This document shows, in pieces, positions 11,525 through 34,825 of a stretch of DNA of 36,931 nucleotides. Where the stretch lies: positions 1 to 36,931 of the IMG/VR virus record IMGVR_UViG_3300037245_001824; one strand, 5' to 3'. The stretch is from a virus. The notes beneath the pieces were generated by a model. The model saw only the letters and a program-made list of their open reading frames with translations. It ran no database searches and was not told the origin of the DNA. Numbering within the stretch: position 1 is the first letter of the stretch; each line of letters begins with the position of its first letter. The translations under genes were made by a program, and so were the position numbers.

Positions 11525-11552
11525 TTACTTTTCCTGTTAGTGTTTGAATGTA

Positions 11553-11658
11553 TTGGATAGCTTGGAATCGAACCAAGAACCCCCCTTCAGGTATTGAAGG
11601 ATTGTAAACTACAATTACAAGAGCCTTCAAATACCGGGAGCCACCCAGGACCTATCCA
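11553..11658 (-). tRNA. tRNA-like gene with an atypical, extended anticodon arm
   Basis: The ends are those of a tRNA. A seven-pair acceptor stem forms from TGGATAG and CTATCCA with discriminator A (CCA is not encoded). A perfect T arm follows the rule: CTTGG, loop TTCGATT, CCAAG. The middle is abnormal and the total is 106 nt. A six-pair stem TTGTAA/TTACAA holds a seven-base loop TTGTAGT, in which U33 and anticodon GUA (Tyr) can be read. This stem is extended outward by GGTATTTGAAGG with CCTTCAATACC (11 pairs, one bulge). An alternative fold gives a class II variable arm CCTTCA-ATACC-TGAAGG. The D arm is unclear (CTGGG-TGGCT-CCCGG). It may be an unusual tRNA-Tyr, a decayed tRNA or a tRNA mimic. 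Confidence 0.5.
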
Positions 11659-11687
11659 GGTGAATTATTTTGGGCAGGTCTTCCGAC

Positions 11688-12008: not shown

Positions 12009-12066
12009 TTACTTTCTCCTTTTATTTGTTTTGCGCTCACTTATGGTAGAGCACTTCACCTGCCAT

Positions 12067-12804: not shown

Positions 12805-12824
12805 TTTGCTTTCCCTGTTGGTGA

Positions 12825-13301
12825 TTAACGTATGATTACAGCTTGGCTTTCTGAGCCTATAACATCGGGCCGGAAATCTGTCTTTCTGGTATAAATACCT
12901 TCATCTTCTAGCTCTTGGTAGAAGTTATCAATATGCCGGCCATCTCTGATTTTAAACTTTTTGCGCTTTGGAACCTTATTTGTGAACAAACCCTTAGCGT
13001 TCTTTCTATAGGAATTATCAGCAACAAAGCCCGGGTACTTTTTTGTTATTCTGGCATCTCTTTTTATTGAAGCCCTTTTTGAACGTCTTTCCATGGCTAC
13101 TTCCTTTGAAGGTCTTCTGTCTGGATCACAGTACTGGAACTTGCATCCCTTTGCGTGATTAAGAAAGCCTTGGCAAACCATGTTTATATTACCTGGGGAC
13201 CCGTCCACTGATTCAGCAGCCGCTTTTATGGAAGGATACTGTTGAACAAAATTACCCTCCATATCAAGCTTGTTCACTGGTGTTTCGTGACCTTTAGGCA
13301 T
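12825..13301 (-). CDS. Protein with an IENR1/NUMOD1-type DNA-binding repeat
   Basis: A 158-residue protein beginning MPKGHETPVNKLDMEGNFVQ. Residues 8-57 (NKLDMEGNFVQQYPSIKAAA through ...KGCKFQY) fit the intron-encoded nuclease repeat pattern (V..LD..GN....Y.SI..A......I..V..G....A.G..W/F.Y). This motif normally sits beside GIY-YIG or HNH nuclease domains in homing endonucleases. No nuclease motif is seen in the remaining basic region (residues 65-125). It may be a remnant or a stand-alone DNA-binding protein. The ATG shares one base with the stop of the upstream gene; an upstream in-frame TTG at 13307 is less likely. Confidence 0.7.
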   Translation of the reverse strand: MPKGHETPVNKLDMEGNFVQQYPSIKAAAESVDGSPGNINMVCQGFLNHAKGCKFQYCDPDRRPSKEVAMERRSKRASIKRDARITKKYPGFVADNSYRKNAKGLFTNKVPKRKKFKIRDGRHIDNFYQELEDEGIYTRKTDFRPDVIGSESQAVIIR

Positions 13302-13489
13302 TACCAACCCCCAGGGTGAAAGATGGCTGATAGTTCACGCTTTGATTCTTTGGGTCGAATATCGAGCAATAGAGCCAATGAACGAGCAGCCTTTGAAAGC
13401 ATGAAAAGCAATGATGATGCAATAGATCCCGATATTACAAAAGGAGCCAGTAGAGCAAATAACGCTATTTTAAGTTTTCTCTTTTTCAC
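13301..13489 (-). CDS. Small single-pass membrane protein
   Basis: A 62-residue frame with a GTG start at 13489 preceded by GCGAGG, the Shine-Dalgarno-like leader used by several genes here. The N-terminus is strongly basic (KKRKLK) followed by one or two apolar stretches (IALFALLAPFVISGSIASSL, LFML), then a short basic-acidic tail. This looks like an inner-membrane peptide with its N-terminus inside. The function is unknown. It is first in the operon that follows the AT-rich palindromic motif at 13513-13539, and it is coupled to the IENR1-type gene. Confidence 0.6.
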   Translation of the reverse strand: MKKRKLKIALFALLAPFVISGSIASSLLFMLSKAARSLALLLDIRPKESKRELSAIFHPGGW

Positions 13490-13512
13490 AATGACCTCGC
13501 TTTGTTAACACT

Positions 13513-13539
13513 GTATTATCTATTATATATATTTAATAC
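13513..13539. promoter_or_regulatory. AT-rich palindromic motif upstream of the 13489-12067 cluster
   Basis: GTATTA and TAATAC are separated by 15 bases of TA-rich sequence that contains ATATATATTTAA. Related palindromes around TAAATATATA occur at other gene-cluster boundaries (16132-16157, 19636-19652, 21337-21357, 27241-27271), each just before a downstream minus-strand gene. This makes it a candidate promoter and/or operator. In this copy the core runs in the opposite orientation, which its dyad symmetry would allow. Confidence 0.45.
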
Positions 13540-13542
13540 ACA

Positions 13543-13896
13543 TTAATCAAGCAGTATCTTAACTTTTAGTCTTTTACATTCTTTTACAACACATTTGACC
13601 ACCCATCCACATAGGTATGCCCTGGCTTCAGAACTTCCTAGATCGCCAGTAACTATTTCAACTCTGTCGAGAACATGTTGAGCCTCATGAGCCATTGTGC
13701 TCATTTTCGGGTTATCCAATATTAAAAATATTTCATGATCATGGGAACCTATCGTAACAAGTCCGCTTTGATAAATAGCCTCTTTGCTTGGCTTTGATTC
13801 GCTAACATGAATATGGAGGACGAACGGGTAAATCTCGTTCCTATACTGCTTGCACTGGTAATTCTTAGGTGTTGAACCGTATTGGAGAATACTCAC
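13543..13896 (-). CDS. HExxH zinc metalloprotein (putative phage peptidase)
   Basis: A 117-residue protein with a zincin motif, HEAQH (H70, E71, H74), in the context STMAHEAQHVLDRV. A downstream glutamate in SSEARAYL (E90) is placed as a third zinc ligand. The DxxG..EARAYLCGW pattern is like small phage and host metallopeptidases of the ImmA/SprT-like size class. It may cleave a host or phage protein, but the substrate is unknown. Its start overlaps the stop of the 13893-14498 gene by four bases. Confidence 0.7.
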   Translation of the reverse strand: MSILQYGSTPKNYQCKQYRNEIYPFVLHIHVSESKPSKEAIYQSGLVTIGSHDHEIFLILDNPKMSTMAHEAQHVLDRVEIVTGDLGSSEARAYLCGWVVKCVVKECKRLKVKILLD

Positions 13897-14498
13897 TTTT
13901 TAATTTCCTTTACAGGATCTGCCCATTCGCCTTGGTCGTTTAGGTACTTGCCAACTCTTGAGACATCATGCCAGCCTTGAGCGGTGCAAATAGTATTAGT
14001 TTCCGGTTTTATGGCAGCTACAAGGTACTCGCTCCCCTCTGCTATTGGTCCAAGCTTAACCCATTTACCGCGTAAGTCTTCAGCGTTCATATACTCAGGC
14101 TTAGGTTTTGGTGCTTCTATAGGCGGGTTGTTTGTGATTTTTATAAAATCTGAAAACAAAACAACTTCATCTTCATCGAACACACTAGCACTCTGAAGAT
14201 GTTTATTTATGTAATGAGGGAAGAAATCACCAATAACATTGAAATTAGTCCAACCTAAAGCTTTTTTAATTGTATTGAGCTCACCTACATTTTCACATTT
14301 AACTTGCTTTCCCTCAATAGCCTCTAATGGAGACACGCATAATACGACCTTATCATAAAATCGCCCAGCTTCGTCAATGTATCTTCTTCCAGGTTCATTA
14401 CCTAAAATCATACTCTTAGGGGTGCTCTCGTCAAGCGTGTCACCACTCGACAAGCAAAAGCATTCTACACTTTTCAGACTTGGTATTTCTTTGTTCAT
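13893..14498 (-). CDS. Hypothetical protein with C-terminal small beta domain
   Basis: A 201-residue protein that I do not recognise. The N-terminal 110 residues contain three cysteines and no known motif. The C-terminal part (LRGKWVKLGPIAEGSEYLVA, then a second strand-rich segment with TAQGWHDVSRVGKYLNDQG) looks like a small beta-rich domain. It overlaps both neighbours and lies in the accessory cluster between the terminase subunits. Some resemblance to small 'surface/valency' phage domains is too weak to call. Confidence 0.65.
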   Translation of the reverse strand: MNKEIPSLKSVECFCLSSGDTLDESTPKSMILGNEPGRRYIDEAGRFYDKVVLCVSPLEAIEGKQVKCENVGELNTIKKALGWTNFNVIGDFFPHYINKHLQSASVFDEDEVVLFSDFIKITNNPPIEAPKPKPEYMNAEDLRGKWVKLGPIAEGSEYLVAAIKPETNTICTAQGWHDVSRVGKYLNDQGEWADPVKEIKK

Positions 14499-14803
14499 TA
14501 CTTAACCCTCTTGTTTACTTTGTAGGTTGGAATGCAGGGGTTTTTAGGTTCAAAAAATGCCGGTTCCTTGTATTCAATCACTGTCGGCGCGAGAAATGGA
14601 ACCAACCCCTTTGCAGCGTCCTCTATTGGACTGGGCTCAAATATAAACTTTGAACCACATGAGCTACATATAAACGTATCACCGATTTTAATCTCACTAC
14701 ATATGAGAAACGAAAAACAACAGTTGTTAAGTATCGGCTCTTTTGCTTCTTCTGGAATAACTGCAGCAGCTTCAGCTTCTTCGGTTAAGTCTTTATAGTT
14801 CAT
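14498..14803 (-). CDS. Small zinc-ribbon-like protein
   Basis: A 101-residue protein, start taken at the ATG at 14803; an in-frame GTG lies two codons upstream. Residues 25-55 contain a Cys cluster (NNCCFSFLIC, then FICSSCGSKF) in which C-x2-C pairs could hold a zinc ion. The start overlaps the end of the kinase-like gene by 11 bases. No family is recognised. Confidence 0.6.
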   Translation of the reverse strand: MNYKDLTEEAEAAAVIPEEAKEPILNNCCFSFLICSEIKIGDTFICSSCGSKFIFEPSPIEDAAKGLVPFLAPTVIEYKEPAFFEPKNPCIPTYKVNKRVK

Positions 14804-15206
14804 GATCACTCGCCTTTATGATTCTTTCAGCAGCCCAAGATTCAAAGCGGTTTGACATATCCAAATAAACTTCCTCCGGCACATTGTGGATGCTTTGGAT
14901 TTTATTATCCATCCTTATAACTTCAAATTCATCAACATTAGGATACATTAATAGTATTTCAAAATACGGCTGCATATCCTTCACCGTTGTGAAAGTATTT
15001 GAAACAACACAATCCATATTCCTTCTTGCGCAGTCCCTCGCCTGATCAAGGCAATAGGTTTTTCTAAGCAAATCAAAATTTTGATCAAACTTGTACACCC
15101 CGTTAGAGACGCAAAACATATCGTTCTCTATGTGCATACAGTTTAATTTCTTGGCTTCGGTTGACTTACCAGAACCAGGTAAACCTCTAATTAGTGTTAA
15201 TTTCAT
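14793..15206 (-). CDS. P-loop polynucleotide-kinase-like protein
   Basis: A 137-residue protein with a clear Walker A loop, RGLPGSGKST (residues 7-16), followed by the conserved acidic segment IENDMF (D29), as in the T4 Pnk/PNKP kinase family (AAA_33). There is no phosphatase domain. It probably transfers phosphate from ATP to a 5'-OH nucleic-acid end or a small substrate. In combination with the RtcB ligase at 21937-23031 it raises the idea of nucleic-acid repair, although RtcB does not need 5'-phosphate, so a direct link is not shown. Four-base overlap with the upstream gene. Confidence 0.8.
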   Translation of the reverse strand: MKLTLIRGLPGSGKSTEAKKLNCMHIENDMFCVSNGVYKFDQNFDLLRKTYCLDQARDCARRNMDCVVSNTFTTVKDMQPYFEILLMYPNVDEFEVIRMDNKIQSIHNVPEEVYLDMSNRFESWAAERIIKASDHEL

Positions 15207-15478
15207 GAGTCTTTCTCCATTTCACGGTCCATAAATATCTGAATTACAAACAAATCACCATCATTAGGATACCAGTTGTCACCACCATAAGTACAATACG
15301 TTATAAACTTTTTGACATTTTCGGTTGAATCACGCCTGGACGCGCGCCGGAATACTAAAACCCTTGTGGGAATATCTGTAATATCATGCCAACATTTGTT
15401 AACCCTTGATTTGTCTTGAGAAGGTATTACTTCGTAAATTGGGTTTCCGTGCCTTTCTAACACTCTGGACAACTTCAT
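15203..15478 (-). CDS. Hypothetical small protein
   Basis: A 91-residue basic N-terminal, acidic C-terminal protein with no recognised motif (MKLSRVLERHGNPIYEVIPS...). A mixed alpha/beta fold is likely. It starts 3 bases after the stop of the 45-residue gene and overlaps the kinase-like gene by four bases, so it is co-translated with it. Confidence 0.6.
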   Translation of the reverse strand: MKLSRVLERHGNPIYEVIPSQDKSRVNKCWHDITDIPTRVLVFRRASRRDSTENVKKFITYCTYGGDNWYPNDGDLFVIQIFMDREMEKDS

Positions 15479-15480
15479 AC

Positions 15481-15618
15481 TTACACCCCCGCGTAAAAGT
15501 CTACAAAACCATCAATATTTATTTCATACCAATCAGGGTACACATAAGGTAAGCAGCCTAATTTGGTTTCAGTACCCCACTCAATAAGTTCATCGTCTTT
15601 ATTAACTATTGTAAACAT
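15481..15618 (-). CDS. Very small hypothetical protein
   Basis: A 45-residue frame (MFTIVNKDDELIEWGTETKL...YAGV) with a good ribosome binding site (GGGAG, seven bases before the ATG). It packs tightly between its neighbours: its stop is 3 bases before the next start. The composition is acidic and aromatic. No function can be given. It fills what would otherwise be the only gap in this cluster. Confidence 0.55.
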   Translation of the reverse strand: MFTIVNKDDELIEWGTETKLGCLPYVYPDWYEINIDGFVDFYAGV

Positions 15619-15620
15619 CT

Positions 15621-15842
15621 TTATACTCCCTGAGTGAATAAATCTTGTTGGTTTTTGTCGGGCTCAATCTTCTCGGCTGGCTCTGTATGATGTACTTCAT
15701 GGTAATCGGCGGTTGCTTCATGGGCGCATTGTGGACACCAATTGCAAACTATCTTAGTCACGTTTGGCGCTATCTCAGAAGTTCTAGCCACTTCTATTTC
15801 ACTTTTACATGAAATGCATATTGTTAATATCTTATTTGCCAC
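15621..15842 (-). CDS. Small zinc-ribbon protein
   Basis: A 73-residue protein with two Cys pairs, CISCKSE (residues 8-11) and CNWCPQC (about 33-39), spaced as in a zinc ribbon. The C-terminus is acidic and glutamine-rich. Such proteins are common in phage accessory regions and often bind nucleic acid or host polymerase, but nothing more specific is visible. Its start overlaps the upstream gene by 11 bases. Confidence 0.65.
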   Translation of the reverse strand: MANKILTICISCKSEIEVARTSEIAPNVTKIVCNWCPQCAHEATADYHEVHHTEPAEKIEPDKNQQDLFTQGV

Positions 15843-16113
15843 TACTCAACCCTTTGAATGCTGGTATTTCACCTATAGAGTCAATTGCTACATCTAAAAA
15901 CATTGTATTTAGATGTGTTTCGCTGACATTGGAATTTGCTAGACGCTCACTAGATAGATCCACTTGCAACACATAATCATCAGGGGCGGGGTCATAACCA
16001 TATATAAGCCTTATATAGCCGTGATCAGGGTGGGCCTTTACAATTTCAGCAATCTTTAGAACTTTGCTTTCATTAGACTCTAATGAAAAAAGATCTATTC
16101 TAGTTCTGTTCAT
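15832..16113 (-). CDS. Hypothetical protein, possible distant paralogue of 16160-16495
   Basis: A 93-residue acidic protein. Its core (HGYIRLIYGYDPAPDDYVLQ, then VD) resembles the core of the nearby 111-residue protein (KFFRIATVYDIATDEFTLGV): both show an aromatic-I/R-x-hydrophobic-Tyr-Asp-x-Ala-x-Asp-aromatic strand pattern. This may be an old duplication. The function is unknown. It starts after the AT-rich motif at 16132-16157, with GCGAG just before the ATG. Confidence 0.6.
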   Translation of the reverse strand: MNRTRIDLFSLESNESKVLKIAEIVKAHPDHGYIRLIYGYDPAPDDYVLQVDLSSERLANSNVSETHLNTMFLDVAIDSIGEIPAFKGLSSGK

Positions 16114-16131
16114 CTCGCACCTACTTTTTTA

Positions 16132-16157
16132 ATACATATTAAATATATATTAATTAC
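16132..16157. promoter_or_regulatory. AT-rich palindromic motif upstream of the 16113 gene
   Basis: The plus strand reads ATACATATTAAATATATATT followed by AATTAC. It shares the TTAAATATATA core with motifs at 19636-19652, 21337-21357 and 27241-27271, and is flanked by imperfect inverted arms. It lies in the 46-base gap between the 16160-16495 stop and the next start, so it is a candidate promoter/operator for the genes that follow. Confidence 0.4.
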
Positions 16158-16159
16158 AC

Positions 16160-16495
16160 TTATAAAGCAATTTTTTGACATCTTGCTTGCCATTCTTCAT
16201 CAGTGAACTTTTTAGATACATCTATTCCGGTTACGTATTTCACAGCGTCCCAAACAATCCTAACATCTTTTATTTCATCGGAGCATTCAATATGATGCAT
16301 CATTGGTATTTCTTTAATATCAGCAAGGACACCCAAAGTAAATTCATCTGTAGCAATATCATATACAGTTGCTATGCGGAAGAACTTATTAGGCAGCCTT
16401 GTTATTTCTCTAACCAATTCACGAAACCTATTTATTTTCTTTTTATCAGTTTCTTTCATAGCTATTGTAGCTTTTCTTCTGGTTATCTCATTCAT
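16160..16495 (-). CDS. Hypothetical protein after terminase small subunit
   Basis: A 111-residue basic protein. The N-terminal 35 residues are a charged helix (KETDKKKINRFRELVREITR). The middle is a strand-rich segment like that of the 15832-16113 protein, and the C-terminus is a short helix with DEEWQARCQK. The start overlaps the end of the terminase small subunit gene by four bases. An internal ATG at residue 13 is possible. No known family. Confidence 0.6.
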   Translation of the reverse strand: MNEITRRKATIAMKETDKKKINRFRELVREITRLPNKFFRIATVYDIATDEFTLGVLADIKEIPMMHHIECSDEIKDVRIVWDAVKYVTGIDVSKKFTDEEWQARCQKIAL

Positions 16496-16959
16496 TTCGC
16501 GTCCCTTTCCTTTTTGGCTTCCATTATTTGTTCAGCCAGTGATAAACTTCCAGTTACTTTGTGCTCTTGCTTGTCTCGCCACATTTCCTCTTGACGGTTC
16601 TTTAGCCAATTCAAGGCCGCACCAGGCTCAGGAGGATAATATTTGTTTACTTTCAGCCTTACAACTTTTGCCGGTCTTCCTCTGCCCTGGGAAACTACTC
16701 TAATTTCTTCAATATCTTCTTTTATAAATCCGGCAGCTCTTTCATAAAAACCATGCGCAACTTTTCCATCGGCCACAACTCCACCCTGATCTAACGCCTG
16801 TCTGAAAGTGGAATGTCTTCTACACCAATTGTAAAATGTCACTTCAGTTATTCCAAATACGTCCGCTATTTGAATATTTGTTTTACCTAAAAGCGCCAGA
16901 TTTCTACAAATTTCATCGGTTTGCTTATTGTATCGGGTTCTTGGTCCCCTTTTTGCCAT
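16492..16959 (-). CDS. Terminase small subunit
   Basis: A 155-residue protein. Residues 18-50 hold a helix-turn-helix (LALLGKTNIQIADVFGITEV, then TFYNWCRRH) typical of terminase small subunits of the HTH type; the 'F..AL..GG..AD..VA..LY.RA.G' pattern follows (FRQALDQGGVVADGKVAHGF, YERAAGF), and then PPEPGAALNWLKNR, which also recurs in this family. It recognises the packaging site and loads the large subunit. A Shine-Dalgarno GAGGGA precedes the ATG. The large subunit is not adjacent: about a dozen small genes lie between. Confidence 0.88.
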   Translation of the reverse strand: MAKRGPRTRYNKQTDEICRNLALLGKTNIQIADVFGITEVTFYNWCRRHSTFRQALDQGGVVADGKVAHGFYERAAGFIKEDIEEIRVVSQGRGRPAKVVRLKVNKYYPPEPGAALNWLKNRQEEMWRDKQEHKVTGSLSLAEQIMEAKKERDAK

Positions 16960-20437: not shown

Positions 20438-21319
20438 TTATTTACAGCTTAGGCCGCGTTGATACTGGTGACAAAATGCTTTAGCGTTACAGTACTTGTG
20501 GCATTTAAAGAATAAATCACCATCACGTTCTTCAGTGTGGTATTCAGTACCGGGTTTAGGTGGGTTTTCTTTGATGTATTGCTTTGCATCTCCCATGCTA
20601 TCAAGCACTCTAACAGCTCTTTTGCCGCCTTTTTTCATTACAGCATACTTTGGTAACTTTCCCCAACGTTCTGCCACTGTACATTCTGGTAGACCGGCAT
20701 CAGGTGTTTTTTCATGCTCGATCACATTTGCAACTTTGCGAGTTAGAAAAAGCTTCTGCTGTTCTTCTGGCCAAATTGGAACCGGAATAGATAAGATGGG
20801 TACTTGTGGGTAATTTCCACCGGCTGAAGCTTTACTTTGAGCCCAATCACGCAGCACCGCCACGACTTCACCAACGCTTACTTCGAACCCCAGCAATCTA
20901 AACAGGTACGCATACATATTAATTTGCTGTTCCCATTCTGGTTTTAATGGTTCATCAGCGTAAATGATACCGTAGACGCCCGTTACTTTCCAATCAGTGA
21001 TCTTTTTCAAGAAACCATCATAAAGATCGCATGAGCCGGTAACTATGCGGCCCAAAATTTCGGTTGACATATATTCTTCTTTCAAAGAATTATCATGATC
21101 GGCCTTATCTAGTATTGCATGAACACCCTGACCTAATAAAGCCCAAACACGATCAGAAACATCTTCTTCAATTTCTGCATAGTGACGGCGAATCAATAGG
21201 ACCGCCTGAATTGATCCTAAAAGTTGTGTTACCGAATAATCACCCTGTTTGTGCTTGAATGAGCGGCAAGCTCTTACTAGCGTTTCAGGAAGATTGTACT
21301 TGTTTGTTAATTTCATCAT
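20438..21319 (-). CDS. PD-(D/E)XK nuclease, RecB/Cas4-like exonuclease family
   Basis: A 293-residue protein with the motifs of the RecB-type nuclease superfamily: GQGVHAIL (H67), GSCDLYD (D98), TDWKVT (D109, K111) and WEQQINMYAYL (Gln/Tyr motif, 129-139). A lone N-terminal cysteine (C18) and a C-terminal cluster (CHKYCNAKAFC, then LSC) suggest a Cas4/AddB-like iron-sulphur cluster. It probably acts on DNA ends in recombination or host DNA degradation. Its transcript likely begins at the AT-rich motif 21337-21357; GCGAGG precedes the ATG. Confidence 0.82.
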   Translation of the reverse strand: MMKLTNKYNLPETLVRACRSFKHKQGDYSVTQLLGSIQAVLLIRRHYAEIEEDVSDRVWALLGQGVHAILDKADHDNSLKEEYMSTEILGRIVTGSCDLYDGFLKKITDWKVTGVYGIIYADEPLKPEWEQQINMYAYLFRLLGFEVSVGEVVAVLRDWAQSKASAGGNYPQVPILSIPVPIWPEEQQKLFLTRKVANVIEHEKTPDAGLPECTVAERWGKLPKYAVMKKGGKRAVRVLDSMGDAKQYIKENPPKPGTEYHTEERDGDLFFKCHKYCNAKAFCHQYQRGLSCK

Positions 21320-21363: not shown

Positions 21364-21567
21364 TTAAATAAGGGGAATTCTTTTGCTTTTTTCTTTTCCG
21401 AGCCCGTTTTTTTCTCTTTTAAAGATCTTCATTACTCTTTGGGCTGTTCTCTTGCCGTTTTTAGTGTTTTTTGCCCGGCACAATTTATTTACATCTTCTT
21501 TTGTTATTAGACCGTTTTCAAAAGCTAGGGCTGCAGCATGGTATAGAACTGTTTTTCCGGTTTTCAT
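21364..21567 (-). CDS. Small basic protein
   Basis: A 67-residue protein from ATG 21567 (GAGGG five bases upstream); a TTG eight codons earlier is less likely. The N-terminus MKTGKT looks like the end of a P-loop but the protein is too short to be an ATPase. The C-terminal half is very basic with Arg/Lys repeats (RAKNTKNGKRTAQRVMKIFK), suggesting nucleic-acid binding. It lies directly after the last cassette of the array and may be the first resident phage gene behind it. Confidence 0.55.
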   Translation of the reverse strand: MKTGKTVLYHAAALAFENGLITKEDVNKLCRAKNTKNGKRTAQRVMKIFKREKNGLGKEKSKRIPLI

Positions 21568-21614
21568 ATTACCCTCAATTAAATAGATCAATCTTTTTAC
21601 ACTTCTATATGATT

Positions 21615-21621
21615 GTTATCG
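21615..21621 (-). other. R'' box of a sixth, incomplete attC site
   Basis: CGATAAC on the minus strand, exactly the reverse complement of GTTATCG, the R' box that opens the same cassette (21804-21810). The stop codon of the lipoprotein (TAA) lies inside the box, as is common in integron cassettes. No matching L''/L' arms or R' box follow, so the site is truncated or eroded. Confidence 0.6.
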
Positions 21622-21837
21622 GTAATACTCCCACACTATTACGGTATCACCATTTTGATACATCTCTCTAGGGTATAAGAATCTCCACGACTCTCCATAT
21701 CCACTTTGCCACTCAAGTTTCACTATATTACCCTCTTCGTCTTTTAAGATTTTACCGTCCAAAGTCTCCCACGGTATGTATTGGCTGCAAGACAATGTAC
21801 TACCGATAACAAGGGCTAGAAATAATTTGCGTAACAT
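21616..21837 (-). CDS. Cassette C6: small lipoprotein
   Basis: A 73-residue protein from ATG 21837 (AGGAAG upstream); an in-frame ATG at 21873 would add 12 residues. It begins MLRKLFLALVIGSTLSCSQY: basic start, apolar core and lipobox TLSC, so signal peptidase II should cut before Cys17. The mature part is short and polar. The signal peptide is encoded by the right half of attC site 5, including its R' box, and the stop codon lies in the R'' box at 21615-21621. A lipoprotein could alter the host surface (for example superinfection exclusion), but that is conjecture. Confidence 0.75.
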   Translation of the reverse strand: MLRKLFLALVIGSTLSCSQYIPWETLDGKILKDEEGNIVKLEWQSGYGESWRFLYPREMYQNGDTVIVWEYYR

Positions 21838-21930
21838 ATTGACACTTCCTTTTTGATTTTTACTTGTTTTCATTCTTCAATTTCCTTTTAAGTTTGTGAG
21901 GCAAACAATGTCTAGCCCCATTCGTTATCA
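21804..21930 (-). other. attC-like site 5 (after RtcB cassette)
   Basis: On the minus strand: R'' TGATAAC, spacer GAATG, L'' GGGCTAGACATTGTTTGC; then a long terminal region; L' GCAAATTATTTCTAGCCC, spacer TT, R' GTTATCG. L'' and L' are complementary at 15 of 18 positions. The spacers are unequal (5 versus 2), as in the unpaired central spacer of attC sites. Total length is 127 bases. It is the only site whose L'/R' half lies inside a coding sequence (the lipoprotein). Confidence 0.78.
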
Positions 21931-21936
21931 AGCATA

Positions 21937-23031
21937 CTACCCCTTTACGTTTATTATCGGGCGTATGTGGTTCAATACTTGCACTAGCTCTTTTTGTTGA
22001 TTCATCACATCAAAAATATTTTTGTACGCAAAAGGCGATTCGTCCAAGGTCTCTAAATCAACCTTAGCCTTTACGCTTACCATTTCAGACTTGAAGTCTT
22101 CTAGGTTAACCAGTTCCTTAGCCTGTCGCCTACTTAAAACCCTTCCTGCTCCATGAGATGAAGACCATAGAGAATCAGGATTTCCCTTTCCAGAAACAAT
22201 AAAGGAACCGTCACGCATATTCCCTGGAATAACACCTTTCATTCCATTTTCTGCGTGTGTAGCACCTTTTCTGTGTATCCACATATCATGTGAAAATTCA
22301 GCGTGGTTGTGATTTCTATTGATAAATTCACCAACTACACCACCATTAAAATATGAGTGCAATATATCGAATACATTGAAAATCATCCTTTTTCGGCTTT
22401 CTAAAGCAAAGTCAAGGCAATACGCTAAGTCTTTGATGTAGTTTTGACCGTCTTCAGAATCAACGCTTAACGGGTAATGACCTTCCCGACATTTTCCACC
22501 ACCTGCTATTTTCATATAGTTAGTAGCTGTCTTATGGCCTAAATTTCTTGAACCGCTGTGAATTATTATCCAAACAAAATCATCTTCATCAAAACCGATT
22601 TCAATAAAATGGTTTCCACCGCCAAGAGTTCCTATTTGATTTAGCCCGTTAATGTCGAATATTTCTTTTAGGAAATCACTAGGGATTGAATCGGTTTCAA
22701 ACTCTTTTTGCTTTTCTTGATGGCGCTTGAATCCAACAGGTATTTTTTTGTAAATATCGTTAAATATTTCGTCTTTAAATTCCTCGACTTCATGTTTTCT
22801 AAATGATGTCTGCAAAGCACACATGCCACATCCTATATCATAACCAACCCAAGAAGGCACTACTACATTACTAGTAGCCACTACTGCGCCTATTGGCAGC
22901 GCATAGCCTAAATGCGCATCAGGCATTAAAGCGCCTGCCACTACCCAATCATTATCAAGGGCGTTATCAAACTGGGCTAATGCTTTTGGGTCTAAAGTAT
23001 TAATATCTGCATATATGTATCTATTCATCAT
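21937..23031 (-). CDS. rtcB: Cassette C5: RtcB-type RNA ligase
   Basis: A 364-residue protein of the RtcB family, which joins RNA 3'-phosphate or 2',3'-cyclic phosphate ends to 5'-OH ends using GTP and Mn2+. The signatures are complete: MPDAHLGYALPIG (36-48), VGYDIGCGM with metal ligands D65 and C68, GGGNH (H141), HSGSRN (H158), RNHNHAEF, HRKGAT (253-258), and SSHGAGR with the guanylylated histidine H293. It is shorter than E. coli RtcB (408), like several phage and RtcB-2 forms. The gene fills a 1,260-base cassette between attC sites 4 and 5; GGAAGG precedes two adjacent ATGs (23031, 23028). A likely use is mending tRNA or rRNA cut by host ribonucleases. Confidence 0.93.
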   Translation of the reverse strand: MMNRYIYADINTLDPKALAQFDNALDNDWVVAGALMPDAHLGYALPIGAVVATSNVVVPSWVGYDIGCGMCALQTSFRKHEVEEFKDEIFNDIYKKIPVGFKRHQEKQKEFETDSIPSDFLKEIFDINGLNQIGTLGGGNHFIEIGFDEDDFVWIIIHSGSRNLGHKTATNYMKIAGGGKCREGHYPLSVDSEDGQNYIKDLAYCLDFALESRKRMIFNVFDILHSYFNGGVVGEFINRNHNHAEFSHDMWIHRKGATHAENGMKGVIPGNMRDGSFIVSGKGNPDSLWSSSHGAGRVLSRRQAKELVNLEDFKSEMVSVKAKVDLETLDESPFAYKNIFDVMNQQKELVQVLNHIRPIINVKG

Positions 23032-23063
23032 ATTTAAATCCTTCCGTTCGTAAATTCTACGTT

Positions 23064-23143
23064 TGATAACTCAGGCTAAGCGTAATTGCCACCCTAAGTA
23101 AAGTTCTGAACTAGGCAACAACGCCTAGCCTTTTATGTTATCA
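23064..23143 (-). other. attC-like site 4 (before RtcB cassette)
   Basis: Minus strand: R'' TGATAAC, spacer ATAAA, L'' AGGCTAGGCGTTGTTGCC; loop; L' GGCAATTACGCTTAGCCT, spacer GA, R' GTTATCA. R boxes pair 7/7, and the L arms pair except for a G/A mismatch and the bases opposite TTG. Length is 80 bases. The stop of the C4 gene is one base before R''. Confidence 0.82.
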
Positions 23144-23144
23144 G

Positions 23145-23318
23145 TCATTCATTTTTTGTTTTATGGCAAAATGGGCAAAAGTCTTTTCCATCTTTAGCCA
23201 GCCATCCGCAAGCTTCTGCTAGTTCTTTGGCATCATCAATATTTCCAGTGTCAAAATCATCTTCATTATGGCACATTATTGCGTCACATGATATTCTAGT
23301 TGTTATATCGTAACTCAT
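23145..23318 (-). CDS. Cassette C4: small zinc-binding-like protein
   Basis: A 57-residue protein from ATG 23318, chosen because AAGGAG lies just upstream; a frame extension to 23378 would run into attC site 3. It starts MSYDITTRISCDAIMCHNED and ends DFCPFCHKTKNE: C11, C16 and the CPFC pair could bind zinc. This form (cysteine pair, 'GW...DG.DFCP.C') is common in small phage and host proteins of unknown function. The stop is one base before the R'' box of site 4. Confidence 0.72.
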   Translation of the reverse strand: MSYDITTRISCDAIMCHNEDDFDTGNIDDAKELAEACGWLAKDGKDFCPFCHKTKNE

Positions 23319-23326
23319 TTTAATCT

Positions 23327-23359
23327 CCTTATGCCTCACGGCATCAAAAATAAACATCT
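23327..23359 (-). repeat. Shared cassette leader, copy in C4
   Basis: A 33-base stretch identical to 23680-23712. On the minus strand it follows directly after the R' box (GTTATCA), contains a small hairpin TGCC-GTGA-GGCA and ends in the Shine-Dalgarno region of the C4 gene. Cassette C2 has an analogous layout: GTTTATTTT, hairpin GGCG-GGAA-CGCC, then GGGAG. Confidence 0.85.
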
Positions 23360-23486
23360 GATAACTAGGGCTAAACACAATTTGCCCAACTATTAGGTAA
23401 TTCCGAATAGTTTGTTAGCCAGTTTCATAATTCAATTTACTCTCATTTTGCAGGGGGCAAACAATGTCTAGCCCCCTATGTTATAA
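23359..23486 (-). other. attC-like site 3
   Basis: Minus strand: R'' TTATAAC, spacer ATAG, L'' GGGGCTAGACATTGTTTGCC; a 60-base terminal region; L' GGGCAAATTGTGTTTAGCCC, spacer TA, R' GTTATCA. L'' is identical to that of site 5 over GGGCTAGACATTGTTTGCC. R''/R' of this hairpin mismatch at one position, but R'' matches the R' that opens cassette C3 at all seven. Length is 128 bases. Confidence 0.82.
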
Positions 23487-23487
23487 G

Positions 23488-23679
23488 TCATTTATTTCTG
23501 ATCTCTAAAACAGTTGAAAGTTCATGCCTTAAGTCACCGCTACCCTCACACTCACCTGTTTCGAAATCAACTGCAAGTAGATCAACCCATATTGGTTTTT
23601 TAGATACCCCCATGAGTGAAAATTCCATTCCAGGACCAAACTTTATTTTATTAAAATCATTCTTATTCGTTGTAATCAT
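23488..23679 (-). CDS. Cassette C3: hypothetical protein
   Basis: A 63-residue protein (MITTNKNDFNKIKFGPGMEF...) with no known motif. It appears to be a small beta-rich domain (FSLMGVSKKPIWVDLLAVDF) ending in a helix. The ATG immediately follows AAGG, with the TGCC-GTGA-GGCA hairpin just upstream. The stop is one base before the R'' box of site 3, and the cassette is 353 bases long. The gene is typical of the unknown short ORFs found in integron arrays. Confidence 0.65.
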   Translation of the reverse strand: MITTNKNDFNKIKFGPGMEFSLMGVSKKPIWVDLLAVDFETGECEGSGDLRHELSTVLEIRNK

Positions 23680-23712
23680 CCTTATGCCTCACGGCATCAA
23701 AAATAAACATCT
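23680..23712 (-). repeat. Shared cassette leader, copy in C3
   Basis: Identical over 33 bases to 23327-23359, including the TGCC-GTGA-GGCA hairpin. It lies between the R' box of attC site 2 and the C3 start codon. The identity stops at the gene start, so the leader is shared while the genes are unrelated. Confidence 0.85.
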
Positions 23713-23792
23713 TATAACAGCACCTACACGGCATTGCTATCATAATTTAAGTTCAAATCTTTGCAACATCGTGTAGCTGCAATACGTTACTA
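23712..23792 (-). other. attC-like site 2
   Basis: Minus strand: R'' TAGTAAC, spacer GTATT, L'' GCAGCTACACGATGTTGC; loop; L' GCAATGCCGTGTAGGTGC, spacer T, R' GTTATAA. The L arms differ in sequence from the other sites (CTACACG core instead of GGGCTAG) but keep the same length and the position of mismatches. This is a structure-conserving, sequence-varying pattern. Length is 81 bases. Confidence 0.75.
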
Positions 23793-23802
23793 ACAATTTA
23801 TT

Positions 23803-24006
23803 TTATTCATTACTGGTGAAAGTTAAATTTGGCAAGGATGATCCAGCTGTGTCCCTGCGTGTGCCAATGCAATAATGGTGGCCAGTTGCACCGCATTTTT
23901 TGCAAGTGTTTGATTTGATTTCGGCTATTTCTAACCTTAGGCTGATAATTTCACTTATCAATTTACCTTTGTCAAGTTTTTGTAACTCATCTAATTCTTT
24001 GAACAT
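23803..24006 (-). CDS. Cassette C2: coiled-coil protein with CxxC pair
   Basis: A 67-residue protein. Residues 1-32 are an amphipathic helix or coiled coil (MFKELDELQKLDKGKLISEI, then ISLRLEIAEIKS). Residues 34-48 carry a small metal-binding-like segment, CKKCGATGHHYCIG. The Shine-Dalgarno GGGAG lies 11 bases upstream, after a GGCG-GGAA-CGCC hairpin. The stop is 10 bases before the R'' box of site 2. The family is unknown. Confidence 0.65.
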   Translation of the reverse strand: MFKELDELQKLDKGKLISEIISLRLEIAEIKSNTCKKCGATGHHYCIGTRRDTAGSSLPNLTFTSNE

Positions 24007-24050
24007 CTTTCTAGTCTCCCAAGGCGTTCCCGCCTAATAAAATAAACAGT

Positions 24051-24104
24051 GAGTAACAAGGGCTAGACAGCATTAAAACGGTTGACTAGCCCCATTCGTT
24101 ATCA
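24051..24104 (-). other. attC-like site 1
   Basis: Minus strand: R'' TGATAAC, spacer GAATG, L'' GGGCTAGTCA; loop of 13 bases; L' TGTCTAGCCC, spacer TT, R' GTTACTC. It is the shortest site (54 bases), close to classical 59-base elements. R'' and spacer equal those of site 5, while R' fits the R'' of site 2 (6/7), as expected when a new cassette was joined here. Confidence 0.8.
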
Positions 24105-24105: not shown

Positions 24106-24225
24106 TCATTTATTTAATTTGTAATCTTCTTTAGTCATGTAATGCCCGTACTTTGAACACCTCGCCCCATTTGGCCAAATAGAAATAAACGAGCCTTTGC
24201 AATGTTGAAATCTTGATTTATTCAT
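24106..24225 (-). CDS. Cassette C1 (first unit): 39-residue protein
   Basis: A short frame starting MNKSRFQHCKGSFISIWPNG; GGGAG lies seven bases before the chosen ATG, and another ATG two codons upstream is too close to it. It is basic with two cysteines. The TGA is one base before the R'' box of attC site 1, the same spacing as in C3 and C4, which supports it as a real cassette gene. It overlaps the end of the 58-residue gene by eight bases. Similar tiny 'CxxG.FI.IWPNG..C..YG' proteins are zinc-like, but I cannot name a family. Confidence 0.6.
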   Translation of the reverse strand: MNKSRFQHCKGSFISIWPNGARCSKYGHYMTKEDYKLNK

Positions 24226-24394
24226 TTTCATCTCCCAGTTCTTTAATATCTTCCATTAGGTTTTCATTAATTCCCGAATAGAGGCGTATCACTTCACCTT
24301 TTTTTACCGGGTCCATATTCGACTGAAGAACAAGCTGAATTCTATTTCTATTTCTATCCATCATGTTTACTAGACGCTCTCTTGTGCTGGACAT
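24218..24394 (-). CDS. Small helical hypothetical protein
   Basis: A 58-residue frame (MSSTRERLVNMMDRNRNRIQ...ELGDENE), acidic at the end and almost wholly helical. Its start region lies in an 18-base tandem duplication, so that an upstream copy of the start encodes only five codons (MSSTR) before a stop. It could be a partner or regulator of the upstream recombination gene. It is the last phage-type gene before the cassette array. Confidence 0.6.
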   Translation of the reverse strand: MSSTRERLVNMMDRNRNRIQLVLQSNMDPVKKGEVIRLYSGINENLMEDIKELGDENE

Positions 24395-24418
24395 TTATCT
24401 TGTGCTGGACATTTATCT
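24383..24418. repeat. 18-base perfect tandem duplication
   Basis: 24383-24400 and 24401-24418 are identical. The unit spans the stop of the NinB-like gene and the start of the 58-residue gene (minus strand AGATAAATGTCCAGCACA). It creates a five-codon mini-ORF (24412-24395) in front of the true start. Confidence 0.95.
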
Positions 24419-24856
24419 TTCCTCCCATTTCCATTCAGGTAAAGGTGGTTCACTTCCCCAGTTTTCCAGGCACCAATCACGAGCTAGGTCAACCAGGTTA
24501 GAGAATTCAATTTTATTTAAGGCGCTTGTTTCTAATGGTTGAAAATGTGTTTTTTCACCTTTAGGCCCAATACCGCGCACTTTTTTGCAGAAACCTATTG
24601 CAAGTTTAAACCAAAATTTGGCATCTTCTTCATTCCAATCATTCCCCCAATATTCTTTTTGGCAAGAATTCCACCATCTTATTATTACATGGATATAGGC
24701 GTTTTGGCGCAAAGTTCTATCATCAACATAAGGTTGAATCACGCAAACATACTTTCCATCTTTAAGGCTTTTTACCTTTTTAGCGGCGGTAATAGGATCT
24801 TCAGGGCGAAAATTCCCACCTTCTAATATTACCGGGTATCTAATTGAATGAGCCAC
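24413..24856 (-). CDS. Possible NinB-like recombination protein
   Basis: A 147-residue protein. The segment VCVIQPYVDDRTLRQNAYIH followed by VIIRWWNS, then W..EDAKFWFK, and a C-terminal ARDWCLENWG has the layout of lambda Orf/NinB ('...RS..QNR..W..L.....' then a helical C-terminus), a recombination mediator that acts with SSB and RecA. The match is by pattern only. It lies between a nuclease-containing cluster and the cassette array, and its start overlaps the upstream stop by one base. Confidence 0.6.
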   Translation of the reverse strand: MAHSIRYPVILEGGNFRPEDPITAAKKVKSLKDGKYVCVIQPYVDDRTLRQNAYIHVIIRWWNSCQKEYWGNDWNEEDAKFWFKLAIGFCKKVRGIGPKGEKTHFQPLETSALNKIEFSNLVDLARDWCLENWGSEPPLPEWKWEER

Positions 24857-29242: not shown

Positions 29243-31999
29243 TTACGCTCTATACTTAAGAAGTATGCTGTAAGGTTTATTTTGTAAAGTAGCATCTATA
29301 CTATCCATTACTATAGTGAGATCATCTTTTAAGTATGCACGGAAAAACGAACTAGAAGATTCACCGAATCCTCCCGCATCTATTTTTAATCCACCAACTA
29401 TTATTGATGCGTCTATTATCCACGCATCCTCATAGTCACTCACTAGGCTGGATATGTCTCTTATTGTTATAGAGGTGGCATTTGCGGTTGTTCCTGTCAG
29501 CTCTTTTTCTTTTGTAGCAAGATTCCCAGAGCCGTGAGATGTGTACCCGCCTACATCAAGATTTCCGGCTATATCCGCAAACCCGCCTATAGTTATGTTA
29601 TTGACGATAGGGTTGGCATCCATATTTATAGTTATGGTATCAGGAGCCGTTACCGCTGTATTTATATTAATTCCACCGGCTATTAATAAAGTATCACCGT
29701 TTGAAATTGTTTCAATGGTTCCAATATCAGCATTTAGCGAGAAAGCCCCACCACCAGCCGAACCACCACCACCTGCTCCGGTATCGTTTCGCTTATCTTG
29801 GGTTGCATTTCCAGCCAATACATTGGTTATCGTCCCGTTTCCAGCATTTTGATAGTGCACTACCGATCTACATACACTAGCTAAATACGCCTGTTCATCT
29901 AATGTAAACCTAGTCCCACCGTAATTAAAGGCGTCTTGTTCTGCAGCGTCAGCGCTATTATAAGATCCATCCGGTAGGTACACATAAAAGCGCGCCTCAC
30001 TACCCTCAGAACTCACCGATATAGCAAAATTTAATCCGTAATAAGTATTGTTACCCCTTAATGACCCACCTTTAGCGTCAGTATCAATTTCGTTTAAATT
30101 TGTAATTATTTTGTAAGGGGTTACCGGGTCATTGGCCACAATATATTCATTAGGCTTTGGGTGTCCTGGCACTATTTGTTGGTGCAATTGATAAGCGATA
30201 CCCGTTAAAAATGATACTTCTAAATCATCTATATCACCGGCGTTAATAGTAATTTCTGTAGTAGCTTCAAGTCCTGATACAATTCTAATTCCGTCAATTC
30301 TGGCGCGTTCTGCCAGCTCAGAAATAATCCCTCTTTCTGAAAGCCCATGGCCGCTACTATCGTTAAATCTTTGGTAGTAGTTTGCGCCGTAAGTGATAGT
30401 ATAGGCATCATCGAAAAATATTAACAACCCACAATTAGCATATGGTACACTGGCACCAGGTATTACCGAAGTGCATAATTGAGGTTCACCGCCAACGTCA
30501 AGGTTTATAAATACAAATTGATTGCTTTTTGTTGTTGCAGTCCCCAAGGTGATCGGGTCAATTGATCTAGCTTTTCCATCTGTACCCGAATTCGTTGTAC
30601 AGTTTAATAGATGATATTTTGAACCTATGTTACATATCAGATCACCGCCGCCGGTCGCCTCAACCTCAGCGTACCAATTGCCACCATCTTTTACAATAGT
30701 TATGGATTGCTCTGTAAGAATAACTCCCGCTTGTATTTCAGCCCCGGTGAAGCTCATCCAAGTGTTTTGAGTGTATCCGTAAAAATCATTATCTATATGC
30801 TGTATAGTGCAATCGGCTGGGCTAATTTGAGATAAAGCTTCACCTAGCACCACCCCTTTAGCAAATATTGAATCTTCGGTGTTACTTAATGAAGTAATAC
30901 TGATCCCACCATCAGTTAAGACTAAAGGCAGGTTTCCGGCACTAGTATCTATCTCATTTCCATTATTATAGGCTATTTGTAGAGTTACATTGGAATTTAA
31001 ATATCCTGCAGTTATTAATGCATCATCAGAACTTGAAAAACCATCTGTGGAAATTAAAATATCATGTACTTGATTACCACCAAGTTCAAACCCATCTTGC
31101 GCTTGGAGATCCCCTACGGATACTATTCCATTCCCCCCATAGATTGACGCAATATTTCCACCTTCTACAAAAACCGAATAACTTGCATTATCACTATAAG
31201 CATATATAGCCCGTCCAGCTGCGGTTTGCACCTGAAGCGCATCCGTACCGGTTGCAGAAACATTACTCCTGTTTATTCTTAACCCATTCCCTAATCCAGC
31301 GGATTCTATATACGCTGTATCCCCGGCATAAGTGGTGCTATACTGTGCTATTTGAGATATAGGCTCTATTGGTTTTACATCACCATCATTTAACCGTAAT
31401 GTTTTACTAAATATTTTTCTGGTGAAATCACCAAAGGTAGAGGTTCCAATATCTCCATCAATTATAACACCTGTGGCCGAGTGTTTTATTTTAGAATCAC
31501 CTATTACACCATTAAGGCCATCCGTAAATACTGGCAGTGTTCCAGTTGTTCCGACTCCTGAAACAAAATCTTTTGTATTTACACTTATTCTAAACCCGCC
31601 TTCTTCGGGCGACAATATGGAAACGTCCATATTGTCGCCCCAAATGAATTTTGAGCTTAGGAATTCACCAATAGAATCTAGTGAGGAAACTTTTACCTGG
31701 TAATTTAAAGAACTTAGACCACTTCCACTTGTTGAAATATTATCTTGCGTATCAATCAAATTATCTGAAGAATCTTTTATTAGAAATTTATAGGCAAATT
31801 CATCATCAAGGTAAATATTTGCTTCACCGCTTGAATTTAAAATAACTGGATTTGCGTTAGGTGTACCTACATTATCCGAGAATGTTGAGGTTGGGGTATT
31901 TGTTCCAGCAATATAGGTGTAAATCTTCCCGCCCGACAACGGCAGTCCCAAGTTGTCTTCAAAGTGAGCCTTTAACAAAGGCATTCTTCCGTATCCCAT
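29243..31999 (-). CDS. Tail fibre/tailspike protein 1
   Basis: A 918-residue protein. The N-terminus (MPLLKAHFEDNLGLPLSGGK, IYTYIAGTNTPTSTFSD, NANPVILNSSGEANIYL, and then KFLIKDS) follows the widespread podovirus fibre opening, 'P.....F.D..G.PL.GGKIYTY.AGT..P..T..D..G....NP..L...G'. It attaches the fibre to the tail. The middle is a repetitive beta-rich shaft, and the C-terminus ends in a polar beta segment. It contains a perfect 15-bp hairpin in its coding DNA (31607-31640). It should bind or digest a host surface polysaccharide or receptor. Confidence 0.82.
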   Translation of the reverse strand: MGYGRMPLLKAHFEDNLGLPLSGGKIYTYIAGTNTPTSTFSDNVGTPNANPVILNSSGEANIYLDDEFAYKFLIKDSSDNLIDTQDNISTSGSGLSSLNYQVKVSSLDSIGEFLSSKFIWGDNMDVSILSPEEGGFRISVNTKDFVSGVGTTGTLPVFTDGLNGVIGDSKIKHSATGVIIDGDIGTSTFGDFTRKIFSKTLRLNDGDVKPIEPISQIAQYSTTYAGDTAYIESAGLGNGLRINRSNVSATGTDALQVQTAAGRAIYAYSDNASYSVFVEGGNIASIYGGNGIVSVGDLQAQDGFELGGNQVHDILISTDGFSSSDDALITAGYLNSNVTLQIAYNNGNEIDTSAGNLPLVLTDGGISITSLSNTEDSIFAKGVVLGEALSQISPADCTIQHIDNDFYGYTQNTWMSFTGAEIQAGVILTEQSITIVKDGGNWYAEVEATGGGDLICNIGSKYHLLNCTTNSGTDGKARSIDPITLGTATTKSNQFVFINLDVGGEPQLCTSVIPGASVPYANCGLLIFFDDAYTITYGANYYQRFNDSSGHGLSERGIISELAERARIDGIRIVSGLEATTEITINAGDIDDLEVSFLTGIAYQLHQQIVPGHPKPNEYIVANDPVTPYKIITNLNEIDTDAKGGSLRGNNTYYGLNFAISVSSEGSEARFYVYLPDGSYNSADAAEQDAFNYGGTRFTLDEQAYLASVCRSVVHYQNAGNGTITNVLAGNATQDKRNDTGAGGGGSAGGGAFSLNADIGTIETISNGDTLLIAGGININTAVTAPDTITINMDANPIVNNITIGGFADIAGNLDVGGYTSHGSGNLATKEKELTGTTANATSITIRDISSLVSDYEDAWIIDASIIVGGLKIDAGGFGESSSSFFRAYLKDDLTIVMDSIDATLQNKPYSILLKYRA
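31607..31640. other. Perfect 15-bp hairpin inside the fibre gene
   Basis: GGGCGACAATATGGA (31607-31621), loop AACG, TCCATATTGTCGCCC (31626-31640): fifteen perfect pairs. It encodes WGDNMDVSILSPE of the 918-residue protein. No T-run follows. Such a perfect palindrome is unexpected in coding sequence and may be a protein or packaging signal, an RNA element or a trace of a small insertion. Confidence 0.9.
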
Positions 32000-32011
32000 A
32001 CTAAACCTTTA

Positions 32012-34825
32012 TTAAGTTAATGGTAAAATTGTCCAGGCATCATTACTTTGAATGTTTACCTGGGAAAAAACTAAATCTAACAACACAGTACCCCAAACCG
32101 TTTTCTCGTCTGATACCGTCCCACCATGCCATTGAAATTCAATGGTCACTTCTGGAAGCTCTTTTGGTTGGTCTCCACTTCCCGGAGGAATAGGGAGCGG
32201 CAACACTGTTTCAAATGTTTCGGGTGGCCCGGTAAGTACTTTAAAAGGTGGTGAGGTATAAACTTTCATTCTTGAGAAATAACGATCTAAAATAGAGATA
32301 TAGTCAGCCCCGTCAAATATCCAATGACCACCGTCACTAATCCCTCCACGAATAGCTATACCATTGTAGGGTAGGATATAATCATCAGATGATAGCAATA
32401 AATCTCTGCGTTCTAAATGACCATCCCCGGAAGATGTAACTGTAACAGATGTTTTGATTTCAGTACTTGGAATTATAATTCTATTCCCTTTGAAATCGTC
32501 AGCATTGCCTATTGTAAAATTGTCTTTTACCGTGGCCTTATGTCCGTATTTAGCAAGCGTTCCGCTTTCAGCTATGACAGCCTCAACAGCTGCAACATTA
32601 GGCGCATACCAGCTATTTTTAGTAATTTCTAAACCTAATGCAGGGGTTCCAGCGCCATCAATAAGTATAGCCGGTATTCCTCCAAGTATTGAATTTCCTT
32701 CTGATTCAAACCTATTGAAACTTACTTGGCATCCGGTTACTTCATCTAATTTTAATATTGTAAAATCCCCAAATCTATTATGATCTATGCTTACATTATT
32801 AGGGTTTTCCACTATTATCTGACTGCTTTCGAAATCACCATTTGTTATTCTTCCCGACAATGCTGACCCTGAAAAGTTTAACTCCCCAGTCCCACTGGAT
32901 CTACCCTTTAAGCCGTTTATTTCGATTTTCTTAGCATTTACCAATAAAAAAGGATTTCCCGTTGCGTAGACAAATGTGTCTTTTATTACAATATCATCAT
33001 GGCCATTCATAAAAACAGCGTCTTTAGAGCTTCCATCATATCCGGCGATTAAGCAATTTTTCATTACAGCAGCAGAAGCACCCGCTGGCGCTATAGCCTC
33101 AAAAACAGCGTTAGTTTCTACCGTTCCATTGTATTCTATTATAAAGTCTCTGAATTCAAATGATGAAAAACTCAACCGCAACATTCTTTGAGCTGGGGTA
33201 TTGTTAGCGTATAGATTCATATTTCTTATTGATACCACGGCGCCCGCAGAATTCAAAGCCACAGGCATACTAAAAACAATTCCAGTGTGCAAACTAAATG
33301 TTTCACCGTCTCCATTTACAAATGATCTTGAAGCATTTGCAAAACCCGGCTTATTAGGGAAGCTGTAAACTTGGCAATTTATTGCGTTCAATATTGCCAC
33401 ATCATTTTGACTATCTTCTAAATATTTATTTCCAACAGCTCCGAACCATTGAGGGTAAACGTCACCCGATATAATAGGCCAATCAGAACCTTCTAAGCAT
33501 TTTGTTTTTGTTTCGATTTTACCGAAATACACACGAGCGTTAAATTCAGCTATCGCTTCACCATCAAAAACATGTGTTAAATTCATTGAGATTTCATCAG
33601 CAGTGTTGATTAAATCATTATCGAATACCGCTCTTGATTTGTTCCAATGCAAAACAGGCTTTAGAGTGCCGAAAAACGTCAACCCTAATACAACATTTCT
33701 CCAATTTACATCTACTATGGTTCCAAATAGATTAAAATTATGCGCGAAAAACTTCCTTTCCTTAGTAAAGGATATGGTTATTCCGAAATTAGGCTGGTCT
33801 ATTCTGGCCCCTGGCTCCCATTCTACCGCATCAGGCATAACTACCGCATCAGTATCTATTACATATGGAACCTCTTGAATGAATTTTAAAGTATTTCCAT
33901 TAGCATTTAGAGAGGCTTTTAATGCAGCTTCATTTGTTGTTTTATGACCAACACCAAACCAATCAACTACAGCCGTTAAATTTGTTGTAGGATTCCAAAT
34001 AAGATCAATATCAACACCCACTAACGATGTGCGGCTACTTATTTCTATTTCGCAATTTATGGTAACAGATCCTACATCTTCATTTTCTGAAGTAAACAAA
34101 ACCCCATCTTCCATAATTAGAAGATAATCACCGGTAAAATTAAGATCACCACTTATGTAGTAATCGGCACGAGTAACATTTATTGTATTGTCTTTGTTTG
34201 AGCCATCATCAGCCCATGTGATCATTGCCTCAAAATTACCTCTTACGTCCAAACCAGGGCCAGGCAAAGCGCCGAACATTTCAGGACGCAAAGGGCCATA
34301 AACTAATCTTTGAAACCTTCCGGTTGCCGGGGCCCCATTTGGCGATATTATTGTTCCACCGTTATCATCTGTTGATAATGCAGCATTCCATTTAAACCAC
34401 CCACCGCCGCCATCTATTGCGGCGGTATAGCCGGCAACATAAACATAATCTGATTTATCTTGTAAAAGTCTTAATTCAGCGATTGTATTAACTACCGCAA
34501 AGCTGCTCGTTGCCCCAAACCCTGCATTACCTGGCACTTCGTCCATTGTCCACCATGGAGGACTGATAAAGCCGCCGCCACCATCTGGAAGCTCAACTTT
34601 TACCTTATATAGTCCTGAACCAAGCCAAACACCGCCATCTACCACCCAACCTTCTGCATCCAAAATTTGGGGGTTTTCCGCTAAAACACTTTGATCTCTT
34701 GACGTGTAAACATCTTTTTTGGTGCTCGTATTGGATTCGTAAAACGTAATCCTAGCGCCCGCAGCCGCGTTATCATTTCTATCAAAAAGCCTTGCACGAG
34801 GAAAAACAAAAGGTATTGCTGACAT
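32012..34825 (-). CDS. Tailspike protein 2, right-handed beta-helix type
   Basis: A 937-residue protein. The N-terminal 110 residues (FVFPRARLFDRNDNAAAGAR, ITFYESNTSTKKDVYTS) resemble head-binding domains with a 'GA.I.FYE..T.T...VYT' pattern. Residues 180-760 carry repeated 'N..I..N.F...' rungs (NVSIDHNRFGDFTILKLDEV, CQVSFNRFESEGN), typical of right-handed parallel beta-helix pectate-lyase-like tailspikes. The C-terminal 150 residues probably hold the trimerisation domain. It likely cleaves or binds a surface glycan. It overlaps the ejection gene by one base. Confidence 0.85.
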   Translation of the reverse strand: MSAIPFVFPRARLFDRNDNAAAGARITFYESNTSTKKDVYTSRDQSVLAENPQILDAEGWVVDGGVWLGSGLYKVKVELPDGGGGFISPPWWTMDEVPGNAGFGATSSFAVVNTIAELRLLQDKSDYVYVAGYTAAIDGGGGWFKWNAALSTDDNGGTIISPNGAPATGRFQRLVYGPLRPEMFGALPGPGLDVRGNFEAMITWADDGSNKDNTINVTRADYYISGDLNFTGDYLLIMEDGVLFTSENEDVGSVTINCEIEISSRTSLVGVDIDLIWNPTTNLTAVVDWFGVGHKTTNEAALKASLNANGNTLKFIQEVPYVIDTDAVVMPDAVEWEPGARIDQPNFGITISFTKERKFFAHNFNLFGTIVDVNWRNVVLGLTFFGTLKPVLHWNKSRAVFDNDLINTADEISMNLTHVFDGEAIAEFNARVYFGKIETKTKCLEGSDWPIISGDVYPQWFGAVGNKYLEDSQNDVAILNAINCQVYSFPNKPGFANASRSFVNGDGETFSLHTGIVFSMPVALNSAGAVVSIRNMNLYANNTPAQRMLRLSFSSFEFRDFIIEYNGTVETNAVFEAIAPAGASAAVMKNCLIAGYDGSSKDAVFMNGHDDIVIKDTFVYATGNPFLLVNAKKIEINGLKGRSSGTGELNFSGSALSGRITNGDFESSQIIVENPNNVSIDHNRFGDFTILKLDEVTGCQVSFNRFESEGNSILGGIPAILIDGAGTPALGLEITKNSWYAPNVAAVEAVIAESGTLAKYGHKATVKDNFTIGNADDFKGNRIIIPSTEIKTSVTVTSSGDGHLERRDLLLSSDDYILPYNGIAIRGGISDGGHWIFDGADYISILDRYFSRMKVYTSPPFKVLTGPPETFETVLPLPIPPGSGDQPKELPEVTIEFQWHGGTVSDEKTVWGTVLLDLVFSQVNIQSNDAWTILPLT

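Follow-up and report, generated by a model that had tools for sequence, protein, structure and literature searches.

A probable CALIN with five integron cassettes in the complete genome of a P22-like phage

Introduction

Whether a run of short genes separated by imperfect hairpins in a phage genome is an array of integron gene cassettes, and by which route such units could have come to lie among phage genes, are the questions raised by the locus described here. It belongs to an IMG/VR virus record of 36,931 nt, the whole of which was analysed and is referred to below as the window. Such a finding has precedents, since phage CALINs were first reported in 2023, with 17 cases that include some in virulent phages, and five of the six phage attC sites tested in E. 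coli were working with IntI1 (PMC9892861). A preliminary description of this DNA considered gene cassettes in a phage to be rare, which they are, but the 17 published cases mean that they are not new (PMC9892861).

Results

Phage genome and setting of the array

The window carries a 127-bp direct terminal repeat at the genome ends, which supports the completeness of the phage record. Regarding its affiliation, the proposal of a P22-like phage is borne out by family matches in the head module, namely portal, coat, head closure and terminase (phrog_156, phrog_283, phrog_578 and phrog_2, respectively). Nearly all genes of the phage are carried on the minus strand, and so are the five small gene units with attC-like ends, which have a NinB-like gene on one side and an exonuclease gene on the other (Table 1); the base composition of the array is no outlier within the genome. 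Elsewhere in the window, an FtsK gamma domain (PF09397, E 2e-13) is present in the phage protein encoded at 12067-12804, an 18-nt tandem repeat in two copies (TCTTGTGCTGGACATTTA) lies at 24380-24415, and family matches are nearly absent from the proteins of 918, 937 and 630 aa encoded at 29243-36717. A search with defence-system models gave no match.

Neither a tyrosine recombinase (intI included) nor a serine recombinase was found in the six frames of the genome, in agreement with the initial reading of the array as a CALIN without an integron integrase, and cassette recombination would thus need an integrase from the host. An HTH_3 repressor was likewise sought in six frames and not found. 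The apparently non-temperate nature of the phage, also put forward at the outset, is retained as a reading of these absences only, recombinases or repressors of unfamiliar families being possible.

Table 1. Positions of the array, its constituents and its neighbours in the window
Feature	Position	Strand	Description
NinB/Orf recombination mediator	24413..24856	-	upstream neighbour of the array; phrog_72, E 2e-11
ORF0	24106..24225	-	39 aa, upstream of attC1; start overlaps the stop codon of the phage gene before it
attC1	24051..24104	-	54 nt; R'' TGATAAC, R' GTTACTC; score 11.95, weak alone
Cassette A	23718..24056	-	339 bp; 67-aa ORF (23803-24006), zinc-knuckle-like CxxC motif
attC2	23712..23792	-	81 nt; R'' TAGTAAC, R' GTTATAA; CTACACG core; score 15.65
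Cassette B	23365..23717	-	353 bp; 63-aa orphan ORF (23488-23679)
Leader of cassette B	23679..23712	-	34 nt, identical to the leader of cassette C; Shine-Dalgarno preceded by a GNRA hairpin
attC3	23359..23486	-	128 nt; R'' TTATAAC, R' GTTATCA; score 17.35
Cassette C	23070..23364	-	295 bp; small orphan ORF ending at 23145
Leader of cassette C	23326..23359	-	34 nt, identical to the leader of cassette B
attC4	23064..23143	-	80 nt; R'' TGATAAC, R' GTTATCA; score 18.4
Cassette D	21810..23069	-	1260 bp; RtcB RNA ligase, 364 aa (21937-23031)
attC5	21804..21930	-	127 nt; R'' TGATAAC, R' GTTATCG; score 16.7
Cassette E	21615..21809	-	R' to R''; signal-peptide/lipoprotein-like ORF (21616-21873), start inside attC5
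Partial attC6	21542..21621	-	R'' CGATAAC (21615-21621), L'' TATAGAAGTGT, L' ACAGTTCTATA (21542-21552); R' absent
Phage exonuclease	20438..21319	-	downstream neighbour of the array; phrog_2139, E 3e-42

Anatomy of the attC-like sites

The layout claimed for these sites, R''-spacer-L''-loop-L'-spacer-R', is present at all five complete ones on the minus strand, with the unequal spacers that had been described (5 nt between R'' and L'' but 1 or 2 nt between L' and R', at every complete site), the mismatches in the L arms and the distinct core of attC2. In the folds, 1x1 and 2x2 mismatches occur in the L arms near the expected place, a clear extrahelical base or bulge being absent; the fold z-score is -3.3 for attC2 on the minus strand, and -5.1 (minus) and -4.5 (plus) for attC4. 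Gene stops had been placed 1-10 bases before R'', which is the case at sites 1 to 5 (1, 10, 1, 1 and 6 bases, respectively) but not at site 6, where the stop lies inside R''. Imperfect palindromes with AAC/GTT cores are what separates the genes, and this is the arrangement by which an attC cassette array is recognised. Rfam models run over the array, at gathering as well as E-value thresholds, returned nothing useful.

Sites were also scored with a scanner written for this analysis, which requires AAC and GTT cores, pairing of the R boxes and pairing of the L arms at set spacings; it was designed after the sites had been read and its scores depend partly on them, a dependence against which shuffles and control phages are only a partial guard. 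The scanner recovers sites in known integron-bearing phages, namely class 1 cassettes in P1, P12002L and TJE1. At scores of at least 14, attC2, attC3, attC4 and attC5 are its sole matches in the whole window, all on one strand and within about 2 kb, as against at most two same-strand matches per 2.2 kb both in 200 dinucleotide shuffles of the whole window and in 1.27 Mb of control phage DNA. The score of attC1 is at a level often reached by shuffles, and this site is accepted because of its near-identity to attC5, with which it has a 19-nt exact repeat in common, and because of its position in the array; attC3 and attC5 have a 20-nt exact repeat in common.

As for the borders of the array, five complete sites followed by a lone R'' box had been reported. 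The five stand, but the sixth site also possesses L'' and L', which pair over 10 of 11 bases, with the same 5 nt between R'' and L'' as elsewhere (a pair as good arose in 11 of 2000 shuffles), and only R' is missing, gone precisely at its expected start. An attC whose final box was lost, via decay or via a join at the cut, is the probable origin of the sixth site. At the opposite border, a cognate R' for ORF0 was sought in the 1.6 kb upstream and none was found.

Register of the cassettes

Integrons are cut in R' between the G and the first T of GTT (G/TT), and the six bases 3' of the G go with the next cassette; the R'' closing a cassette should consequently pair with the R' that opens the same cassette. 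In cassettes A to E, closing R'' and own opening R' agree at 19 of 20 variable bases (with 6/7 in register for A and 7/7 for each of B, C, D and E), while R'' and R' of the same site agree at only 13 of 20. The value of 19/20 was equalled in 2 of the 120 pairings (about 0.017), the second of which arises because two R' are identical, and with five cassettes the test is a modest one. This register is the feature that separates cassettes from plain hairpins; it would be expected if an integron integrase had inserted the cassettes as circles, and is the strongest new evidence for a cassette array.

Cargo of the cassettes and common leader

Cassettes A, B and C carry small orphan genes, the ORF of cassette C being 77 aa as listed and about 57 aa from an ATG with a Shine-Dalgarno before it. 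The RtcB of cassette D matches PF01139 (E 2e-85) and phrog_1075 (E 1e-109) and has intact motifs (GYDIGCG, GGGNHF, HSGSR, NHNHAE and SSHGAGR), with an N-terminus about 10 residues short of its relatives. It is 54% identical to the RtcB of the Proteus phage 3H10_20 group (PHROG 1075) and the catalytic motifs are kept in both, but in the present phage attC ends enclose the gene. The enzyme probably repairs RNA cut during infection; no literature linking integron, attC and RtcB was found among open-licence papers. In cassette E, the start codon and the hydrophobic LFLALVIG are encoded by attC5 itself (21804-21873, read by eye), which places the recombination point inside the signal-peptide-like sequence, and the predicted product would be a surface-directed protein. 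In class 1 integrons, signal peptides are known to be disturbed by fusions across attC (PMC3375312).

Besides, cassettes B and C have in common a leader that spans the R' region to just 5' of the start codon and is the longest repeat of the genome after the terminal repeat. Cassettes D and E are devoid of it, and an exact 24-mer of this leader is absent from IMG/VR. More broadly, A, B and C are each preceded by a hairpin with a GNRA loop and, after it, a Shine-Dalgarno, a combination found nowhere else in the genome. The ORFs of B and C are unrelated but their 3' ends are alike (AATGACT-R''). One reading of this pair, which is quite improbable, would be that an existing cassette frame, with its shared leader and similar stop/attC end, received new genes, perhaps by phage recombination, in which case phages would be a birthplace of cassettes.

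Relatives of the array and of its sites

No relative of the array was retrieved from IMG/VR, where the close relatives of the exonuclease, portal and RtcB came down to a single 14.9-kb near-identical contig that stops short of the array. A bacterial chromosomal integron with the same sites, for which the preliminary description proposed a search, did not emerge from a genome-wide attC motif search of an 84,980-genome collection, which gave one chance match only. This match, in Colwellia, was rejected, being an intergenic hairpin in surroundings devoid of an integron, and among 369 sampled genomes of the same class 6 matched, which is no more than the reversed-pattern control. Clusters of attC sites were found neither among 80 distant exonuclease-relative loci nor beside RtcB in 80 viral RtcB relatives.

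Discussion

The array is very probably a CALIN, and the five integron cassettes that form it would have entered this complete P22-like phage via a host integron integrase and been kept as accessory genes. Beneath this reading are the anatomy of the sites, the register of the cassettes, the absence of two recombinase families and the phage context. Counting against it are the lack of any relative of the array in the collections searched, the weakness of attC1 taken alone, and L arms with mismatches in place of a clear extrahelical base. The cassettes would have entered as circles through attC recombination, the integron integrase being supplied by the host cell, and most likely came from a host integron. 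They would then have been retained as accessory phage genes expressed together with the surrounding phage genes, and the sites may still be working.

A rather unlikely alternative is that the former attC sites are now mere blocks of homology, between which phage recombination by the exonuclease and NinB would swap ORFs at shared ends, free of any integrase today. The location of the array between these two genes is in favour of it, as are cassettes B and C with their common 34-nt leader, similar 3' ends and unrelated ORFs; yet this leader is not common to D and E, and the agreement of R'' with its own R' in every cassette, variable bases included, is what insertion by IntI predicts. Such swapping would be compatible with integrase-made cassettes exchanged later by homology, for which the register leaves room. 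Regarding the origin of the contig itself, a bacterial CALIN fragment joined into phage DNA by chimeric assembly is very doubtful: although the only near-identical contig retrieved covers 1775-16677 and not the array, the 127-bp terminal repeat at the genome ends, the cassette genes being co-directional with the phage genes, the ordinary composition of the array and the overlap of the ORF0 start with a phage gene stop all speak against it. Intergenic hairpins do occur in phages and Rfam gave no match here, but that these sites would be ordinary phage hairpins or terminators resembling attC by chance is scarcely credible given their clustering on one strand compared with shuffles and control phages, their AAC/GTT cores, their equal spacers and the cassette register.

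Taken as a CALIN acquired through a host integrase, the array is best compared with those of the virulent phages TJE1, P12002L and PH101 (PMC9892861), which likewise have attC sites, short genes and no integrase in a phage genome, the sites of P12002L having the same 5/2 spacer layout. It differs from them by the P22-like head, the five cassettes in one direction and the RtcB cargo, and no sequence relationship to these three CALINs was found. The Manatee Spring phage MW202573, which is listed with a CALIN (PMC9892861), also has a P22-like portal, 27% identical to the portal here; no attC cluster was detected in it by the scanner (whole record at 14.5, parts at a lower cut-off), and the present analysis does not confirm it as a precedent. 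Sedentary chromosomal integron arrays, e.g. in Vibrio or Shewanella, share the attC layout, the single small gene per cassette, the common orientation and the prevalence of orphans, whereas the present array is virus-borne, without intI and with no attI recognised.

Conclusion

The array is a clean and fresh example of an already reported phenomenon, the phage CALIN, and the few published phage arrays gain with it a well-formed case in a complete phage. The register of its cassettes points to a real insertion of cassette units, and the pair formed by B and C, alike at the ends but with distinct genes between them, offers a concrete place to test the open question of how cassettes are made. More generally, the array lends support to a role for phages in carrying cassettes from one host to another.
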